Source of the DNA: a virus
Strand: one strand, 5' to 3'
Virus record (IMG/VR): IMGVR_UViG_3300009001_000098
Location: 1-23,503 of that record
Length of the DNA stretch: 23,503 nucleotides
Within the stretch, counting starts at the first letter, position 1. Each line of letters begins with the position of its first letter. A program made the position numbers and the translations under genes. Under the pieces are notes generated by a model. That model did no database searches and was not told the origin of the DNA. It saw only the letters and a program-made list of their open reading frames with translations. Below, in pieces: positions 7,795 through 22,276 of the stretch.

Positions 7795-9279
7795 ATGGCT
7801 AATTCAATGCGTGGTCTGACCCCTGAAATGACTGCTGAGTGGGTAAAAAGGATGCAAGAGGCTTATGAAAAAAAGGGGGCTAAAAGTAAAGCTGTACGAC
7901 CTGCTGGTATGAACCCAAGGTCAAGGGCGTTACCTAGTTATGTGCCGCTAAAACAAGAAACTCCATTACCTGCAAATGCAAATAATTCTCCAGACAGGTT
8001 CCCATTCAATCCTCCACCTATACCTGTACAAGACTTAGGCTACCCTCCACATGCTAGTGGAGCTTTGGGGAGTAACCAAGGTCAAGGCTTAGGCTACCCT
8101 CCACATGCTAGTGGAGCTTTGGGTCAAGCACCAAGTTACCAAGACCAGTTTCCTGTTGACGGTGCAGTGCAAGGGACTAATCCTAATGCTGCTATGATGG
8201 GTGGTGACGAGACTGCTGGACAACCTAGCATGATGGATAAGATCATGGGCTACAAACCTGACATGGGTATGCAGCAGTTGTTTGAGGCTACAGGAAAGGC
8301 GTTTGGTAATCCTCTTATAGGTGTTGCCCCTAGCGCAGGCGGTACTAGCATAGGTGGTGAGTACTCAAACCTCAATCCTGCATATGCTGAGAAGAAAAGG
8401 ACAAAACTTGCTGCTGATAAACTTCGTGAACAAGAAGAGTCCCAAGAAAATGAGAAGCGCCAGTACATAAAAATGGGCTTGGAGTCAGGTGCAATCACTC
8501 CTAAACATGCACAAAGGCTCATGGCACTTAAAGGAGTTCCAAAAGGAATTAAAGATATTATCGAAGCTAAGACTTTTGGTAATGTTGATAATCTTGGTAC
8601 GTACAAGGGCGGTCGTATCTTAAAAGCACCTACATCTAAAAATGTTGGACACTACCTAGATAAGGAAACTGGAAATACGCTACCATTTTCTCAAGAGGAT
8701 TGGATAAATTCCTCCCGTAAAGGACAGTCTAAGTCAGCCTCAGAAGCTAATGAAGATGCTTTTTCTGAAATGGGTATTTCGTCTGCTGAGAACGCTCTTG
8801 CTGTTATAAGGAAAGAAAAAGAATCCCCAATTTGGGAAAAACTTATTGGCCCGGGTACGTTTAGTGGGAGGATTGCAGATTATTTGAGCGCAGATACTCC
8901 ACTTGGTAGGATAAGACAAGCTATGGAGCCTATTTTAGCTACACAAAGTTTGGATGAGATGAGAAGACTTAGGGAAGCCTCACCTAATGGCAGCACAGGC
9001 CTTGGTCAGGTTACAGAGTTTGAACATAAAATAATGCAAAGCAAGATAGCTGCGCTAAACCCAGAGACTACAGACATCAAAGTCTTAGAGAAAAACGTAG
9101 AAGAGGTGTTGAACTATCGTAGGTGGTTGTTTAATAGGAAGTCTCGCCCAGATGAAGGTGGCCTTTCTTACAAAGAGTGGTTATCAAAAAATAAGACAGA
9201 TACTAAGGTGAAAAACTTAGAGTCTGAATTAAAGAGACTTAAAATAACTCCAGTAGGAAGGGTTCCTCAAGGTGGCTAA
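7795..9279 (+). CDS. Internal virion protein with proline-rich repeats
   Basis: A 494-residue protein with a disordered Pro, Gly and Asn-rich part (about residues 35-150) containing two copies of a 12-residue block, LGYPPHASGALG. A charged coiled-coil-like segment follows (about 195-225, KKRTKLAADKLREQEESQENEKR), then a more globular helical C-terminal half. AGGAGGAG lies 9 bases upstream of the ATG, the strongest ribosome binding site in the window. By order it stands among the ejection proteins, between gp14-like and gp16-like genes. I do not recognise a domain. Its last 8 bases overlap the GTG start of the next gene. Confidence 0.72.
   Translation: MANSMRGLTPEMTAEWVKRMQEAYEKKGAKSKAVRPAGMNPRSRALPSYVPLKQETPLPANANNSPDRFPFNPPPIPVQDLGYPPHASGALGSNQGQGLGYPPHASGALGQAPSYQDQFPVDGAVQGTNPNAAMMGGDETAGQPSMMDKIMGYKPDMGMQQLFEATGKAFGNPLIGVAPSAGGTSIGGEYSNLNPAYAEKKRTKLAADKLREQEESQENEKRQYIKMGLESGAITPKHAQRLMALKGVPKGIKDIIEAKTFGNVDNLGTYKGGRILKAPTSKNVGHYLDKETGNTLPFSQEDWINSSRKGQSKSASEANEDAFSEMGISSAENALAVIRKEKESPIWEKLIGPGTFSGRIADYLSADTPLGRIRQAMEPILATQSLDEMRRLREASPNGSTGLGQVTEFEHKIMQSKIAALNPETTDIKVLEKNVEEVLNYRRWLFNRKSRPDEGGLSYKEWLSKNKTDTKVKNLESELKRLKITPVGRVPQGG
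8034..8123 (+). repeat. 36-bp direct repeat pair inside virion gene
   Basis: Two identical 36-base units occupy 8034-8069 and 8088-8123, set 54 bases apart, so the reading frame is kept. Each encodes LGYPPHASGALG. Perfect identity at the nucleotide level implies a recent duplication in a disordered linker. Confidence 0.93.
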
Positions 9280-16196: not shown

Positions 16197-16766
16197 ATGA
16201 GCCACAGCATGTATAAACTCAATAAAGCATCAATGAACCTCATCAAGTCCTTCGAGGGCTGGCGCTCCAAAGCATACAAAGACTCTGTAGGCGTGTGGAC
16301 AATCGGCTATGGGCACACCTCAATGGCAGGGCCACCCAAGGTAAGGGCAGGCATGAAAATTACCAAAGCCTTTGGTGAAGACCTGCTACAAAAAGACCTA
16401 CAGAAATATGCCAAGGCTGTAGATGATGCTGTAAAGGTAGAATTGAACTCTAACCAGTTTGGCGCTCTAGTCAGCTTCTGCTACAATGTAGGCCCTGGAA
16501 ACTTCAGAAAGTCCTCTGTCCTACGTTACACAAACAAGTCAAGATTCAGTGACGTACCTGCTAGACTTATGTTGTGGAATAAGGCTGGTGGTCTTGTCCT
16601 CAGAGGCTTAACACGTAGGCGTAAGGCAGAGGGCAAGCTGTTTATGTCAACAAGTGAGAAATTTAACAAAGTAACCGTTCCAACTGTAACCACAGTAACA
16701 ACCACAGCCGTTGTTGTAGTTGCCTTCTGGGATAAAATCAAAGCGTTTTTTGAGGGGCTAATCTAA
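16197..16766 (+). CDS. Endolysin, GH24 (T4-type) lysozyme with C-terminal hydrophobic anchor
   Basis: A 189-residue lysozyme that hydrolyses peptidoglycan at lysis. The catalytic triad is Glu20, Asp29 and Thr35, in the motifs SFEGWRSKAY, KDSVGVWTIGYGHT; the 9- and 6-residue spacings are those of T4 lysozyme (Glu11, Asp20, Thr26). Further family marks are NQFGALVSFCYNVG and GLTRRRKAE. The C-terminal 30 residues add a hydrophobic segment (TVTTTAVVVVAFWDKIKAFF), unlike the soluble T4 enzyme, whereas SAR endolysins have it at the N-terminus. There is no signal sequence, so export needs a holin. The start at 16197 or the Met five codons on (16209) are both possible. It lies two bases after the previous gene. 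Confidence 0.92.
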   Translation: MSHSMYKLNKASMNLIKSFEGWRSKAYKDSVGVWTIGYGHTSMAGPPKVRAGMKITKAFGEDLLQKDLQKYAKAVDDAVKVELNSNQFGALVSFCYNVGPGNFRKSSVLRYTNKSRFSDVPARLMLWNKAGGLVLRGLTRRRKAEGKLFMSTSEKFNKVTVPTVTTVTTTAVVVVAFWDKIKAFFEGLI

Positions 16767-16957
16767 TGTTTGAGAAAATCTGGTACAAGTCTAAAACCTA
16801 CTGGTTCAACATCCTGAGTTTTGTTGTCCTTGTGTTGTCAATGCCTGAACTTATTGGTGTGTTGCCATCTGGCATAGTTCCTTGGGTTGCTCTGTTTGCA
16901 GCACTTGGCAATATGTACCTCCGGTCAATTACACACAGCCCTGTCTATTTCAAATGA
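16766..16957 (+). CDS. Small membrane protein, holin candidate
   Basis: A 63-residue protein with two hydrophobic segments (about residues 14-30, FNILSFVVLVLSMPELI, and 37-53, IVPWVALFAALGNMYLR) and a short basic tail. It starts inside the endolysin stop (TAATG) and overlaps the next gene by four bases (ATGA), so the three genes are translationally coupled. The SKTYWFN start is familiar from small membrane proteins of marine phage lysis clusters. A class II-like holin topology is plausible, but I cannot separate it from the other membrane proteins downstream by sequence alone. Confidence 0.75.
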   Translation: MFEKIWYKSKTYWFNILSFVVLVLSMPELIGVLPSGIVPWVALFAALGNMYLRSITHSPVYFK

Positions 16958-17307
16958 TAAGGTGGCTGGTGGGGGCTATCTTGTCACCCTTCTTGAGGAT
17001 AGGTGAAAAATATCTGGACAACGAAAAAGACAAGGTGAAACTAAGAGAGGGTACAAAGCGTGTATCCATAGAGGCTGACACAAGTGTAAGAAAGATCAAG
17101 TTCAGCTCATGGATGGGACGACTGCCTCTCTTTGTTGCTGAACTGACTTGTAGCATGTACATAGCTGCTATCTTCATTGACAGCACTTTCGCCAGTGACT
17201 ACATAAACCCCCTTGAACTCCCAGAATGGTTTAAAGAACACTTTTATATCATAGTAACCTCTGTTTTTGGAATAGCGGTAACACAGAGGTTCTTGAACAG
17301 AAAGTGA
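16954..17307 (+). CDS. Membrane protein, probable holin (GTA holin-like)
   Basis: A 117-residue protein. The start at 16954 is chosen because it overlaps the previous stop as ATGA; a longer frame from 16882 lies inside the preceding gene. An amphipathic N-terminal helix (IRWLVGAILSPFLRIGEKYL) is followed by a charged stretch with DKVKLREGTKRVSIEADTSVRK. Two hydrophobic segments follow (about 55-75, PLFVAELTCSMYIAAIFI, and about 93-112, FYIIVTSVFGIAVTQRF). This layout resembles the three-segment holins of gene-transfer agents and alphaproteobacterial phages (PF11351-like). It directly follows endolysin and is my first holin candidate. Confidence 0.7.
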   Translation: MIRWLVGAILSPFLRIGEKYLDNEKDKVKLREGTKRVSIEADTSVRKIKFSSWMGRLPLFVAELTCSMYIAAIFIDSTFASDYINPLELPEWFKEHFYIIVTSVFGIAVTQRFLNRK

Positions 17308-17312
17308 TAAGG

Positions 17313-17377
17313 CTATGGAACCTGATCTTACAGACGAAGAGAAGATTGAACTAAGAGAAATAATTGAGAAAGACAAA
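17313..17377 (+). repeat. 65-bp perfect direct repeat, left copy
   Basis: Bases 17313-17377 are identical to 17819-17883 at 506-base spacing. The unit starts two bases before an ATG and covers 21 codons of MEPDLTDEEKIELREIIEKD plus one Lys. The flanking sequences are unrelated apart from this unit. The left copy lies between holin-like gene and glycine-rich gene. Confidence 0.97.
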
Positions 17378-17398
17378 GGAGCATTTCCATGCGTATAA
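17315..17398 (+). pseudogene. Truncated duplicate of the 60-residue membrane protein gene
   Basis: A 27-codon frame whose first 21 residues (MEPDLTDEEKIELREIIEKD, K) are identical, at nucleotide level too, to the start of the gene at 17821. It then diverges to GAFPCV and stops, so the transmembrane part is missing. AAGG lies just upstream of its ATG, and the frame overlaps the start of the glycine-rich gene by 10 bases. It may be a non-functional remnant left by insertion or duplication. It could also still be translated as a soluble acidic peptide that couples translation into the next gene. Confidence 0.75.
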
Positions 17399-17793
17399 TT
17401 ATAACCATTCTGTTTGCCGTTATAGTAAGCACGGCAGCACACGCTCAATCAGGTGGCGGTAACTGCGGAATAGGAGTTGGAAACGGAGGTGGCAACGGAA
17501 CAGGAAACGAGTCCGGTGGTGGCGGGTGTGGAAACAACAACGGTGGAGGAAATAGCGGCGGCTCTGGCGGAGACACGGGTAGCTCTGGCGGAGACACGGG
17601 TAACTCTGGTGGAAGCGCGGGCGGAAGTTCGAACGGCTCTGGAAGCGCGGGTGCAGACTCTGGAACAGAAAGTTACGACGACCGTGAGCGCATGTCTCGC
17701 AGACCGCTACTGAAGTGTTGTAACAAAAACGGCAACGTGAAATACGATCAGACGTTCTGCCCTAGGTCTTACAGAGCGGATAGATGCAAATGA
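17389..17793 (+). CDS. Glycine-rich secreted protein with six cysteines
   Basis: A 134-residue protein with a clear signal peptide: basic start, hydrophobic core IIITILFAVIVSTA and an AHA site, predicted cleavage after residue 19. The mature part begins with a Gly, Asn and Ser-rich region to about residue 93 (mostly GG-x repeats). A basic C-terminal part follows with Cys110, Cys111, Cys124 and Cys133; Cys26 and Cys47 lie in the glycine region. Six cysteines suggest disulfides in the periplasm or outside. AAAGGAG lies 7 bases upstream. Base use (GGC, GGA, GCG, AGC) differs from neighbours. It sits inside a direct-repeat pair, so it was probably acquired recently. I recognise no family. Confidence 0.75.
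   Translation: MRIIITILFAVIVSTAAHAQSGGGNCGIGVGNGGGNGTGNESGGGGCGNNNGGGNSGGSGGDTGSSGGDTGNSGGSAGGSSNGSGSAGADSGTESYDDRERMSRRPLLKCCNKNGNVKYDQTFCPRSYRADRCK
17560..17601 (+). repeat. 21-bp tandem repeat in the glycine-rich gene
   Basis: Units 17560-17580 and 17581-17601 differ only at the first base and each encode a seven-residue block of the form G/S-SGGDTG. A partial third unit follows (GCTCTGG-type), so the region grew by slippage or unequal recombination. Confidence 0.88.
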
Positions 17794-17818
17794 CCAATCA
17801 ACGAGGGAGGGCCATTAC

Positions 17819-17883
17819 CTATGGAACCTGATCTTACAGACGAAGAGAAGATTGAACTAAGAGAAATAATTGAGAAAGACAAA
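17819..17883 (+). repeat. 65-bp perfect direct repeat, right copy
   Basis: Identical to 17313-17377. Here the repeat is the intact 5' end of the gene at 17821, preceded by a different, stronger ribosome binding site (GAGGGAGGG). The two copies diverge immediately after GACAAA. Confidence 0.97.
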
Positions 17884-18003
17884 AGGTGGAAGTGGTTGGC
17901 AACTACAGTAAGGAACACCGCTGGTTGGATAGCAGCAGTGGCACTAGGAATCACAGTAGGGTGGGACTGGCTGCTAAAGATTATAAAACAAGGGGCATCG
18001 TAA
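17821..18003 (+). CDS. Small single-span membrane protein of the lysis cluster
   Basis: A 60-residue protein: an acidic N-terminal helix (residues 1-21, MEPDLTDEEKIELREIIEKD), then KRWKWLATTVRN, one membrane segment (about 34-50, GWIAAVALGITVGWDWL) and a short basic end. This form (a W-rich basic border followed by a W-A-A-x-A segment ending in GWD) is familiar from small proteins near lysis genes of alphaproteobacterial phages. Its function is unknown, with a holin, antiholin or pinholin-like role possible. GAGGGAGGG sits 9 bases upstream. Its 5' end is duplicated 506 bases upstream. Its stop overlaps the next start as TAATG. Confidence 0.75.
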   Translation: MEPDLTDEEKIELREIIEKDKRWKWLATTVRNTAGWIAAVALGITVGWDWLLKIIKQGAS

Positions 18004-18476
18004 TGAAAGCCACAGAGTTCTTAGCTGGTTTGATCATAGCTGTTGCCTTCCTTGTGTTGTCAGCATCTTCTATCCCTACAACTTACTGGTACAAATACCT
18101 TAGCATCAAACCTACAAAAGAGGTTTACACTGTTGGGGAGCCTCTCAAATTTATCTCTACAGTAGAGAACTACACCTCTGGAGACTACTCTATTGAATGG
18201 CACGACGAGCTAAGGTGTGTAGTGAAAAACGAAGATACCTTGGTAGGAAAAGTTACCTCAACAGGGAGCCTATTTTTTAACAACAGACTTCCTAACAAAA
18301 CTGTGTGGTCGTGGGGTTCAGTACCTAAAAACACACCTCTTGATGTACCCTGTTACATTAGGAGTATTCAGACAATTGAGGTGTTGTTTGGGATAGATAG
18401 GAAGACTACCTACGAAAGTTCTTTTTTCAAAATATCAGAGTTTGATTACACAAGACAGCAACAACAGAAAGGCTGA
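18003..18476 (+). CDS. Membrane-anchored or secreted protein, unknown function
   Basis: A 157-residue protein with an N-terminal hydrophobic segment (about residues 5-22, EFLAGLIIAVAFLVLSAS) that serves as signal anchor. An outside domain of beta type follows, with KEVYTVGEPLKFISTVENYTSGDYSIEWHDELRC, and a C-terminal FFKISEFDYTRQQQQKG. The wording VYTVGEPLKF and single cysteine pair (Cys76, Cys117) suggest an immunoglobulin-like extracytoplasmic domain. The start at 18003 shares a base with the preceding stop; a longer frame from 17886 overlaps the preceding gene and is not used. It could be a spanin-like or superinfection-exclusion protein, with no decisive sign for either. Confidence 0.7.
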   Translation: MKATEFLAGLIIAVAFLVLSASSIPTTYWYKYLSIKPTKEVYTVGEPLKFISTVENYTSGDYSIEWHDELRCVVKNEDTLVGKVTSTGSLFFNNRLPNKTVWSWGSVPKNTPLDVPCYIRSIQTIEVLFGIDRKTTYESSFFKISEFDYTRQQQQKG

Positions 18477-18482
18477 CATATC

Positions 18483-19292
18483 ATGGTATGGGATAGAAAC
18501 TACGGCACAAGGGAAGACGACTTCTGGATTCGCCATGCTATTGAAGAGATAGACAACACCTATGGTGACAGGGTACGACCTAAAGCCAAGTCACTGTTGA
18601 AATTTGGTAAGAACGAGTCTCTGGGCACTTCTATCGAAACCATCTGGGAACAGGGAGGTAACGAGACTTATGCAACCACAAACGCAATCGATTCAATATC
18701 AAGCTCTAGTGGTAGTGACACAGAGGTCATGACTATAGAAGGGCACACTGTTAGCGGTACAGGGACAGATGCACAGTTTACCTTTGTCATTCAAACAGTC
18801 ACCCTGGCCGGTCAAACAGAGACACCTTTGGTTACACCTCTAGCTAGAGTCAGCCGTGCTTTCAACGCAGGTGCAACGACACTTGTTGGTGATGTTTATA
18901 TCTATGAGGATGATACTGTAACTAGCGGTGTGCCTCAGACAGCTTCCAAGATACACATGAAAATTCCTGCTGGGCAGAACACAAGTTTCAAAGGCTCAAC
19001 AACATTTAGTAACACTGACTATTTCATAATGACAGAAATGCACTTTGCAGTCGGTAAGAAGGCAAGTGCTACTGTCGATTTTGATATGGAAATCCGTAAG
19101 GTTGGTGGCCTGTTCCTGCCTAAATTCCAAACCACGTTAGCTACCACAGGATCTAACTCAGAGAACATAGAGTTCAGGCCTTACTTTATCGTGCCTAAAA
19201 ATGCAGACATAAGAATTAGAGCAATCGGCTCAACTACTGCAATTGAAGCCGACTGCAATTTTGAGGGTGTGATCTGTGAGATTGCAGATTAG
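18483..19292 (+). CDS. Putative virion structural protein at the end of the late arm
   Basis: A 269-residue protein. The N-terminus, MVWDRNYGTREDDFWIRHAIEEIDNTYGDRVRP, is helical. A Ser-rich turn leads to a beta-rich body with DTEVMTIEGHTVSGTGTDAQFTFVIQ, TPLARVSRAFNAG, GDVYIYEDDTVT and KIHMKIPAGQNTSFKGSTTF, and an end containing FRPYFIVPKNADIRIRA. The FVIQ-x-x-LAG to PAG-x-N to YF-x-P-K-N-ADIR order is one I recall from structural proteins of marine cyanophages and pelagiphages. It probably forms a capsid-surface or fibre domain. The last four bases overlap the end of a leftward gene. Confidence 0.72.
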   Translation: MVWDRNYGTREDDFWIRHAIEEIDNTYGDRVRPKAKSLLKFGKNESLGTSIETIWEQGGNETYATTNAIDSISSSSGSDTEVMTIEGHTVSGTGTDAQFTFVIQTVTLAGQTETPLVTPLARVSRAFNAGATTLVGDVYIYEDDTVTSGVPQTASKIHMKIPAGQNTSFKGSTTFSNTDYFIMTEMHFAVGKKASATVDFDMEIRKVGGLFLPKFQTTLATTGSNSENIEFRPYFIVPKNADIRIRAIGSTTAIEADCNFEGVICEIAD

Positions 19293-19426
19293 TGTAGGGT
19301 TGTAGCTTCAAACTGGTCTGGGGCCACAAAGTTTTCAAGTAGCTCCAGCCTAAGTTCTAGCATTACAATCCTCTCTGTCATCTCCTGTAGAAGCTCTTGG
19401 AGGCTCCTCTCCTTACTACTCTCCAT
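19289..19426 (-). CDS. Small 45-residue coiled-coil peptide
   Basis: A reading frame of 45 residues starting MESSKERSLQELLQEMTERI and ending ATTLH. The middle has heptad-like leucines (LQELLQEMTERIVMLELRLELLENF), so a coiled coil is likely. GGGGAG lies 8 bases upstream of its ATG, as good as any in this unit. The start overlaps the end of the glutaredoxin gene by 11 bases, as other neighbours here do. Its stop overlaps that of the opposing structural gene by four bases. It is the last gene of the leftward unit. The function is unknown. Confidence 0.62.
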   Translation of the reverse strand: MESSKERSLQELLQEMTERIVMLELRLELLENFVAPDQFEATTLH

Positions 19427-19697
19427 CCAGTTTCTCCCCAAAGCTGTACTGGTCATCCATGTATGGTTCGTTATCCTCTAGGAATTGCTTCAAGTCCTCA
19501 TAACCTCCTATGTACTGCCTATCTACAAATACAGCAGGTGCAGTGCGTATCCCTTGGCTATCGAACAACCTCCGTAACTCCGTACTACCTTGATGGTCAA
19601 GAGAACATATTGAGAAATTGACGTTGTGGGAGTCTAAGAGTCCCTTTGCCTTTGTACAACTCTCACAGTAAGCCTGTGTCACAAGTGTCACTTTCAT
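19416..19697 (-). CDS. Glutaredoxin
   Basis: A 93-residue protein with the thioredoxin fold order: strand MKVTLVTQ, active-site CESC at residues 11-14, then helix KAKGLLDSHNV, strand, helix ELRRLFDSQGI, the cis-proline turn TAPAVFVD and GGYEDLKQFL. The active-site CESC replaces the usual CPYC; both cysteines are kept, so dithiol chemistry is possible. Next to a class II ribonucleotide reductase it is a natural electron donor for the C-terminal cysteine pair of that enzyme, which is an inference from position. GGGGAG lies 8 bases upstream of the ATG, which comes two bases after the preceding stop. Confidence 0.88.
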   Translation of the reverse strand: MKVTLVTQAYCESCTKAKGLLDSHNVNFSICSLDHQGSTELRRLFDSQGIRTAPAVFVDRQYIGGYEDLKQFLEDNEPYMDDQYSFGEKLDGE

Positions 19698-20374: not shown

Positions 20375-20386
20375 TTTTCAATTCTC

Positions 20387-22276
20387 CTATATTAAGTCTA
20401 CAATTTCACAAGAGTCACCAGAGCAAGCTAGGGTCTGACTACCAAGGGTATTGTCTTCAGTCTCATAAGTTTTCAACAACTCCCAATCAAGTTCTTTAGG
20501 CATTTCCTTTCTAAGGTCAACAATATCTTTCCAACTGACTTCTTGGTAGGGAGCCTGCTGATAAGTGTGACTGTCGTATGGCAGGAAACTAACACCTGAC
20601 ATTTCATCGAAGTGCTTGTACACAAACGCACCAACTTCAACCCACTCATCATCCCTTACGCTGATGGTTACACTAGGCTTGTGTTCACACCAATGCCTCT
20701 GGTACATGAGCCAAGTCTCTAGCTGGTCAATGGCACTAACATCAGATGTGACAATAGCCCCTTTTGGTGACGACATTGGGAAACTGAACACAGTGGTCGT
20801 GTCAGGACTAAATGCCGCAGGCTCATTAGGAACACCGCTGTCCTTCAGGAACTGAGTTAGAGGATCACCATTATCCCCACGAACAGTCCGTATGTAATGC
20901 CTGCTATAACGAGTGTGAATACCGGATGAAGAGTCAACCAACTGCGAAACCGTCCCACTAGGCTTGTTACAAGTGATAGCAGCGGCCACAGGAATCCCAA
21001 GACGATCAGCCCAAACTTTGTTAGTATCAACAGCGACATTACGAAGATGTTCAAGAGTTTTCTCCAAACCTTTGTTTTTTGTTGTCATCAAGGTGTTGTC
21101 CATCACACCTGTTAACGACACACCTAGAAGACGCTCTTCCTCAGTGTTCTTCTGCCACACCTTGCGTAGGTATGGGAAGTGTGTATAGGTTGATTGGATA
21201 GTACCTAGGATGGTTGCCAGTTTTACCTTACGCTCAAGGTCATCGATTGTGTCTGTGGCTCTTACAACAACCTCTGTAAGGTTACAAAACTGGTAGGGTC
21301 GAAGGATGATCTCTGAGCAAGGATTCGTGCCAAACATATGTGCAGGATCACGCCTACCGTTCTTCCCAGCCTGTTTCTGACTTGACTCACGGTTGAAGAT
21401 GCCTCTCTCACCTGAACCGCTCTCCATAAGACTAAGCCACTCACGCATGAACGCATTTACGTCAGGCTTGCTTGTGTAGGCCACAGAGTTATTAGCATAT
21501 TGGCGTTGAGGGTTGTTCTCCCACCAGGATCCTGACTTAGCTGTTGCCATTCTGTTGCTGCTAAGGTTGCTCAAGCTAATCATTGCAGACCGCCTCACAC
21601 CACCAACAACAACTACCTTCCCTATCTTACACATGATGTCGTGGCACTCAAGGTCAGTCAGTTTACGACCAGCAGCACCCTTAAAGACATCAATGGTGAA
21701 ATTGAACAGGTCAACAAGAGGAGCGGGGCCACTGGCACGACCACCAAAGGTCTTTAGTTTAGAACCAGCAGGTCTTATCTTTGACACGTCCCAAGTAGGT
21801 ATGTAACCGTCCCACAGGTCAGCCAAGAGTTCCTTGTAAGCCCTAGCCCACCCTTCCTTACTGTCAGCAACAACGATTTCACCTGTGCTGCGAAAGGTCT
21901 CACAGATTGGTGGTAGCTTCTCAATGTTCTCACGTTCCACACTGAACCCCACACCAGTGCCACACAACAGGATGAACATAGCCTCATCAAATGACCTTGG
22001 GTGATCAACAGGAAGATATGAGCAGTTGTAGGCACAGGTGTTATCCCTATCCATTGCCTTACCTGCTGTCATCAAGGCTCTCATACTAGGCATGATATCA
22101 AGGTTGACAATCGCCTCCTCAATCTCAAAGTAGCAATCAACATCACCCACTACGTTTTTCATGTAACGCTCAACAGTCTCAGGCCATTCTTCTCGTCGTC
22201 CCTCATCCTCTAGCCACTTGGCGTATCGTGACTTGTGGATAAACGATTGGTAGTCAGTCGGTAGGTAATTACTCAT
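20387..22276 (-). CDS. nrdJ: Adenosylcobalamin-dependent (class II) ribonucleotide reductase
   Basis: A 629-residue enzyme that reduces ribonucleotides to deoxyribonucleotides for phage DNA synthesis, resembling the monomeric Lactobacillus leichmannii enzyme. The substrate-site triad is visible in NPCSE: Asn318, Cys320 (thiyl radical) and Glu322, with partner Cys85 (AYNCSYLP) and Cys331 eleven residues on, the same spacing as Cys408-Cys419 there. The C-terminal CSGDSC (Cys618, Cys623) is the redox shuttle pair. Other landmarks are LLCGTGVGFSVER, VGGVRRSA and NKPSGTVSQLVD. It is shorter than the 739-residue bacterial form. No NrdB-type subunit is encoded in the window. The start overlaps the preceding stop as ATGA. 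Confidence 0.93.
   Translation of the reverse strand: MSNYLPTDYQSFIHKSRYAKWLEDEGRREEWPETVERYMKNVVGDVDCYFEIEEAIVNLDIMPSMRALMTAGKAMDRDNTCAYNCSYLPVDHPRSFDEAMFILLCGTGVGFSVERENIEKLPPICETFRSTGEIVVADSKEGWARAYKELLADLWDGYIPTWDVSKIRPAGSKLKTFGGRASGPAPLVDLFNFTIDVFKGAAGRKLTDLECHDIMCKIGKVVVVGGVRRSAMISLSNLSSNRMATAKSGSWWENNPQRQYANNSVAYTSKPDVNAFMREWLSLMESGSGERGIFNRESSQKQAGKNGRRDPAHMFGTNPCSEIILRPYQFCNLTEVVVRATDTIDDLERKVKLATILGTIQSTYTHFPYLRKVWQKNTEEERLLGVSLTGVMDNTLMTTKNKGLEKTLEHLRNVAVDTNKVWADRLGIPVAAAITCNKPSGTVSQLVDSSSGIHTRYSRHYIRTVRGDNGDPLTQFLKDSGVPNEPAAFSPDTTTVFSFPMSSPKGAIVTSDVSAIDQLETWLMYQRHWCEHKPSVTISVRDDEWVEVGAFVYKHFDEMSGVSFLPYDSHTYQQAPYQEVSWKDIVDLRKEMPKELDWELLKTYETEDNTLGSQTLACSGDSCEIVDLI

Follow-up and report, generated by a model that had tools for sequence, protein, structure and literature searches.

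How did a single gene come to lie, in the lysis region of a marine phage, between two identical copies of the start of its downstream neighbour? The locus that raises this question is contained in a window (the whole stretch of DNA analysed here) of 23,503 nucleotides. As stated in a preliminary description of this DNA, the segments 17313-17377 and 17819-17883 are identical (65/65 positions; start-to-start spacing 506 nt). No longer exact repeat occurs in the window, the runners-up being 36, 21, and 14 nt long; among 100 first-order Markov sequences of window length, the maximum was 18 nt.

The repeat pair and its gene neighbourhood

The following features were recognized, all on the plus strand:

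16197-16766: endolysin (phage lysozyme), start of the lysis operon (PF00959, 9e-47; PHROG endolysin)
16766-16957: 63-aa membrane protein, weakly holin-like (DUF7940, 0.0026, below the cut-off; PHROG holin, 0.018)
16954-17307: m117, conserved membrane protein, left neighbour of the putative insertion (PHROGs of unknown function)
17308-17314: 7-nt m117/s60 junction at copy 1, taken as ancestral from the comparison with contig L063
17313-17377: repeat copy 1, CT plus s60 codons 1-21 (65/65 identical to copy 2)
17315-17398: 27-codon remnant ORF, MEPDLTDEEKIELREIIEKDKGAFPCV, opened by copy 1
17375-17381: AAAGGAG, Shine-Dalgarno sequence of gly134, spanning the end of copy 1, 7 nt before the ATG (from the sequence)
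17378-17818: segment between the copies, 441 nt, GC 54% vs. 46% in the window
17389-17793: gly134, 134 aa (ORF), filling 405 of the 441 nt between the copies
17803-17811: GAGGGAGGG, Shine-Dalgarno-like sequence for s60 inside the cassette, at a fitting distance from the ATG (from the sequence; GAGG shorter in contig L002)
17819-17883: repeat copy 2, CT plus codons 1-21 of the intact s60 (sequence comparison)
17821-18003: s60, intact 60-aa protein with one transmembrane segment (TM) and an acidic N-terminus (ORF, hydropathy)
18003-18476: p157, N-terminal TM plus a further domain, start overlapping the s60 stop (ORF, hydropathy)

The plus-strand order is thus endolysin, 63-aa protein, m117, copy 1, gly134, s60, p157, and p269 (18483); beyond p269, genes for a glutaredoxin, a protease-like protein, and ribonucleotide reductase lie on the minus strand. 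Two further statements of the preliminary description also held: the repeat coincides with the 5′ end of the gene at 17821 (copy 2 starts 2 nt ahead of the s60 ATG and covers codons 1-21 of 60), and the bases between the copies are nearly all a glycine-rich gene with a ribosome binding site of its own. The gene just upstream had been called a holin, a name that is not supported: m117 matches only PHROGs of unknown function, and the weakly holin-like gene (16766-16957) stands one gene before it. The major capsid protein belongs to the SU10_MCP family and shares 66% identity with its counterpart in Rhizobium phage RHph_I1_23.

The product of gly134 has a signal peptide (MRIIITILFAVIVSTAAHA, recognized by eye), a Gly-rich middle, and a Cys-containing C-terminus with an SYDDR motif. 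The signal peptide predicted from its sequence makes the periplasm or the surface of the infected cell its probable site of action; receptor masking (superinfection exclusion) or aid in disrupting the outer membrane are guesses at its task. A lipobox, as in an outer-membrane spanin lipoprotein, was not seen by eye (AHAQSGGGNC has no Cys at the cleavage site). No name could be assigned to gly134, s60, or p157 from Pfam, PHROGs, NCBIfam, or PADLOC, and the PDB likewise yielded none for p157 or the C-terminus of gly134; PADLOC defence models had no match to gly134 up to E 1. No transposase was found between the copies, where gly134 (no Pfam match, no significant PHROG) is the sole gene. In a scan limited to consensus sequences, promoter and terminator sites of the cassette's own were no more frequent than in shuffled sequences, and a promoter-like match at 17370-17399 was within chance.

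Two smaller repeats were noted in the window. One, exact over 36 nt (97.6% identical over 41 nt) and with a spacing of 54 nt, is located at 8034-8123 in the gene starting at 7795, where the peptide LGYPPHASGALG is repeated. A 9-nt match, TCTTACAGA, occurs a third time at 17767, exactly 65 nt ahead of its occurrence in copy 2, and was taken as chance.

The same structure, with both copies and the cassette, was found in a sister contig (3300009000_000025). Over about 23.4 kb, this contig and the window differ at 27 sites, of which eight lie between the copies, in the Gly-rich tract. An assembly artefact would have had to arise twice and in the same way in two differing contigs, and we consider it very improbable, even though contigs L002 and L081 end within Gly-rich tracts, an indication that such tracts are difficult to assemble. 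The eight differences sit within 47 bases (17572-17618), a pattern that fits reshuffling of internal 21-nt repeats.

Copy 1 might also have been retained for a function, either as a coupled leader from m117 to gly134 or as an off-switch acting by excision. The stop of the remnant ORF does overlap the gly134 start (ATG at 17389) by 10 nt, and the gly134 Shine-Dalgarno sequence lies inside the remnant, so we infer that translation of gly134 may be coupled to it. However, that Shine-Dalgarno sequence is strong in itself, the predicted RNA fold of the copy is not unusual (z 0.30), which also speaks against a regulatory RNA, and constraint on copy 1 is not evident from any strain comparison. Retention for a function thus appears improbable.

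The m117 junction in related phages

Distant relatives were reached via the endolysin and m117. Homologues of m117, 48-70% identical, were detected in 15 viral contigs, not counting the near-identical sister contig, and the identities by relative were as follows:

L063/L064: 70%
L012/L013 and L021: 62-63%
L007/L008: 60%
L070-L072: 51-53%
L078 (Chelativorans genome): 52%
L014-L019 group: 48%

Since L078 is a Chelativorans genome, it is probably a prophage. Against 50,697 phage records m117 had no match, nor did s60 and gly134 at E up to 1 and 0.1.

No gly134-like gene was found behind m117 in L012/L013, L021, L007/L008, L014-L019, L063, L070-L072, or L078. The gene next after m117 in L012, L021, L007, L063, L070, and L071 is a small one-TM gene, separated from the m117 stop by 5-11 nt or overlapping it; in L063 and L021 it is followed by a gene for a protein of about the size of p157 with an N-terminal TM. 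No homologue of s60 was detectable in these distant relatives, whose small genes show no detectable homology to it (that of L063 encodes 67 aa and is XhlA-like), so that the empty layout is read from position and gene type, and the slot is conserved while its content varies. In L070 (2861-3478), L071 (3588-4205), L072, and L078 (3818-4435), a trypsin-type protease-like protein with a lipoprotein-like signal and the motifs TAAHVVG and GQSGG is encoded shortly behind the m117 homologue.

The nearest relative, L063, has the same 7-nt spacing after its m117 homologue as is seen at copy 1, and the flank of copy 1 (AGAAAGTGATAAGGCTATGGAA) is identical to that of L063 (AGAAAGTAAGAGGGCGATGGAA) at 18 of 22 positions counted by eye. 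This agreement in flank and spacing points to copy 1 as the old junction and copy 2 as the new one.

A gene directly behind the glutaredoxin gene and on the opposite strand was found in L063 (4390-4854, minus) and at the end of L081; its product has a signal peptide and a Gly-rich middle, and in L063 its C-terminus carries SYDDR and CPKNY. In an alignment of the C-termini of gly134 and the L063 protein, the observed score was reached by 13 of 20,000 shuffles with gap 11 and by 2 of 20,000 with gap 8. HMMER gave 8.8e-9 for the L063 protein against gly134 of the sister contig, a value to be read with caution for composition, since both proteins are Gly-rich and the homology test is weakened accordingly. 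A scan of viral sequences with the C-terminal alignment matched only the two known close contigs. Judged from these sequences, related phages probably carry the gly134 family in two slots on two strands, which we take as support for gain by insertion. In the window, the slot of the L063 and L081 gene is occupied by a 55-aa ORF (19292-19456, minus) that starts inside the glutaredoxin gene.

Origin and age of the cassette

We regard it as probable that a one-gene, moron-type cassette inserted at the m117-s60 junction and duplicated the start of s60. Entry of a cassette that duplicated 21 codons and left a 27-codon remnant had been proposed in the preliminary description and is still the simplest reading, given that gly134 is missing from this junction in the distant relatives. 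The raised GC content of the segment between the copies also speaks for insertion. The cassette would consist of gly134 with its own Shine-Dalgarno sequence and a Shine-Dalgarno-like stretch for the next gene, and could have entered by illegitimate recombination or by a template switch during phage recombination. A single illegitimate join of s60 codon 21 (ACAAAAGG) to the gly134 leader (AAAGGAG), the partner being a genome or fragment with gly134 already ahead of s60, would yield the observed order in one step and is the mechanism we prefer. The product expected from a staggered break followed by fill-in is identical, and the two are indistinguishable on present data. The first 65 nt of s60 would thereby be kept on both sides, which would leave s60 intact and turn the first copy into the remnant, and the Shine-Dalgarno-like stretch of the cassette would substitute for the lost closeness of s60 to m117. 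The direction of change would be insertion here rather than loss elsewhere, in one event rather than two, and the source would be exchange with a phage that already had gly134 before s60, with homogenization of the copies at a later time. Annealing of the 65-nt copies would excise the cassette and restore the m117-s60 junction. The sister contig (31.5 kb) continues with genes for a T7-like DNA polymerase, a primase/helicase, an exonuclease, and an endonuclease; the polymerase and the two nucleases suggest a genome suited to annealing-type recombination.

Besides the window, s60 was detected in only two IMG/VR contigs, namely the sister contig and L002 (3300025892_001960); neither an allele lacking the 506 bases nor a donor with gly134 ahead of s60 was found. 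L002 is 97.8% identical to the window and starts inside gly134, hence ends before the region of copy 1. It carries the 3′ part of gly134, the same right junction, and s60, and its divergence is similar there. The cassette is older than the split from L002, since the right half and the right junction are shared. A recent insertion, one of two causes that the preliminary description had offered for the identity of the copies, is therefore not supported; the other, conversion between them, still fits. It had also been held that a recent insertion would lose its support if all relatives carried the cassette and both copies: the distant relatives have neither, and the near-identical contig has both.

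Copy 2 of L002 differs from that of the window at 3 of 65 sites, all synonymous, and all of the six differences tested in s60 were synonymous (6/6). Were copy 1 and the cassette of equal age, the copies should differ from each other at about 1.2-3 sites; the observed number is zero (P between 0.05 and 0.29, according to the rate; Fisher P 0.24). Gene conversion, chance, and a later origin of copy 1 are all consistent with the perfect identity. At 18392-18398, four differences fall within seven bases, and the sister contig and L002 agree with each other against the window, a pattern suggestive of the exchange of a short tract.

A later origin of copy 1 would follow if gly134 had entered without duplication and a template switch had afterwards copied the first 65 nt of s60 before it. 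Perfect identity would then be explained by the youth of copy 1, which shows no differences from copy 2 while copy 2 itself has diverged from L002. The flanks without copy 1 could read TGATAAGGAGCATTTCCATG, with a good Shine-Dalgarno sequence for gly134, and that of s60 was already supplied by the cassette. Yet two events are required, copy 1 would have to match the spacing and flank of the uninterrupted L063 junction by chance, and the missing divergence is not significant in the Fisher test given above. We consider this sequence of events unlikely, though deserving of some weight.

The two copies could also be what is left of two full s60 genes that once flanked gly134, the first having lost codons 22-60 by deletion at AAAGG-like matches. 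The break at ACAAA/GGAG can be matched with ACAAAAGGTGG in copy 2, a short match of the Shine-Dalgarno type, and a similar join is present at 20384-20395, the site of a gene present in L002 but absent from the window. A duplication and a deletion would both be needed, however, and a relative with two full copies of s60 was not seen; we doubt that the locus arose in this way. The join at 20384-20395 is a CTCC match (Shine-Dalgarno-like on the minus strand) in the interval between the ribonucleotide reductase and protease-like genes; the L002 gene at this position encodes 59 aa (L080:4318-4497) and is missing from both the window and the sister contig.

Insertion with duplication of the s60 start, our preferred reading, is a commonplace form of gene gain in phages, and this instance of it is unusually legible. 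The case would show one route by which a gene can be taken up into a tightly packed operon without damage: the next gene is kept whole by duplication of its start, and the cassette supplies translation signals for itself and its neighbour. If such copies are common, they would mark datable and reversible gene gains, with excision measurable directly in phage populations. A far bolder idea, to which we give little credence, is that gly134-type genes form a family of one-gene mobile units of marine phages that switch slot and strand among related genomes. Such a unit would land at a start codon and duplicate several tens of bases from the 5′ end of the adjoining gene, whereby the target gene would be preserved and annealing of the copies could excise the unit.

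Comparison with known mobile segments

The locus resembles a transposon or insertion sequence in that an insert lies between direct repeats of target sequence, but no transposase and no inverted ends are present here. The usual target-site duplications are far shorter than 65 bp. The mycobacteriophage mobile elements MPME1 and MPME2 are 439 bp long, have terminal inverted repeats, and add 6 bp (PMC3029335). The segment described here is of nearly equal size and likewise lies near the 5′ end of a gene; in contrast to MPME, its cargo is a secreted protein and it lacks clear terminal inverted repeats, the only candidates being weak pairs of 9-13 nt. One inverted pair near both ends (17385-17395 and 17816-17826, 82%) corresponds to the two start-codon regions.

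The term moron denotes a gene that separates, in one phage, two genes found side by side in its relatives (PMC3029335; PMC6316719). In the broad sense the term may suit gly134, in that m117 is followed directly by a one-TM gene in most distant relatives, a gene not detectably homologous to s60. The strict sense demands a promoter and a terminator of the moron's own, whereas this cassette brings translation signals only.

The closest likeness in structure is to a 1.35-kb segment in LRRHood, flanked by 29-bp direct repeats of a sequence that is single in related phages (Pope et al., 2011; PMC3029335). The authors considered two origins, acquisition through recombination with another phage and loss through recombination between the repeats (PMC3029335). 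Both cases have extra phage genes with direct repeats on either side, and in LRRHood these genes are missing from close relatives. They differ in that the repeat here measures 65 bp rather than 29, one gene is carried instead of four, and the copies here correspond to the start of the gene downstream. For LRRHood a single-copy relative is known, whereas here the s60-bearing contigs besides the window are one with both copies and one starting inside gly134. Two repeat copies around an extra segment, the mark of an LRRHood-type arrangement, are present at this locus with identity over the full 65 of 65 positions.
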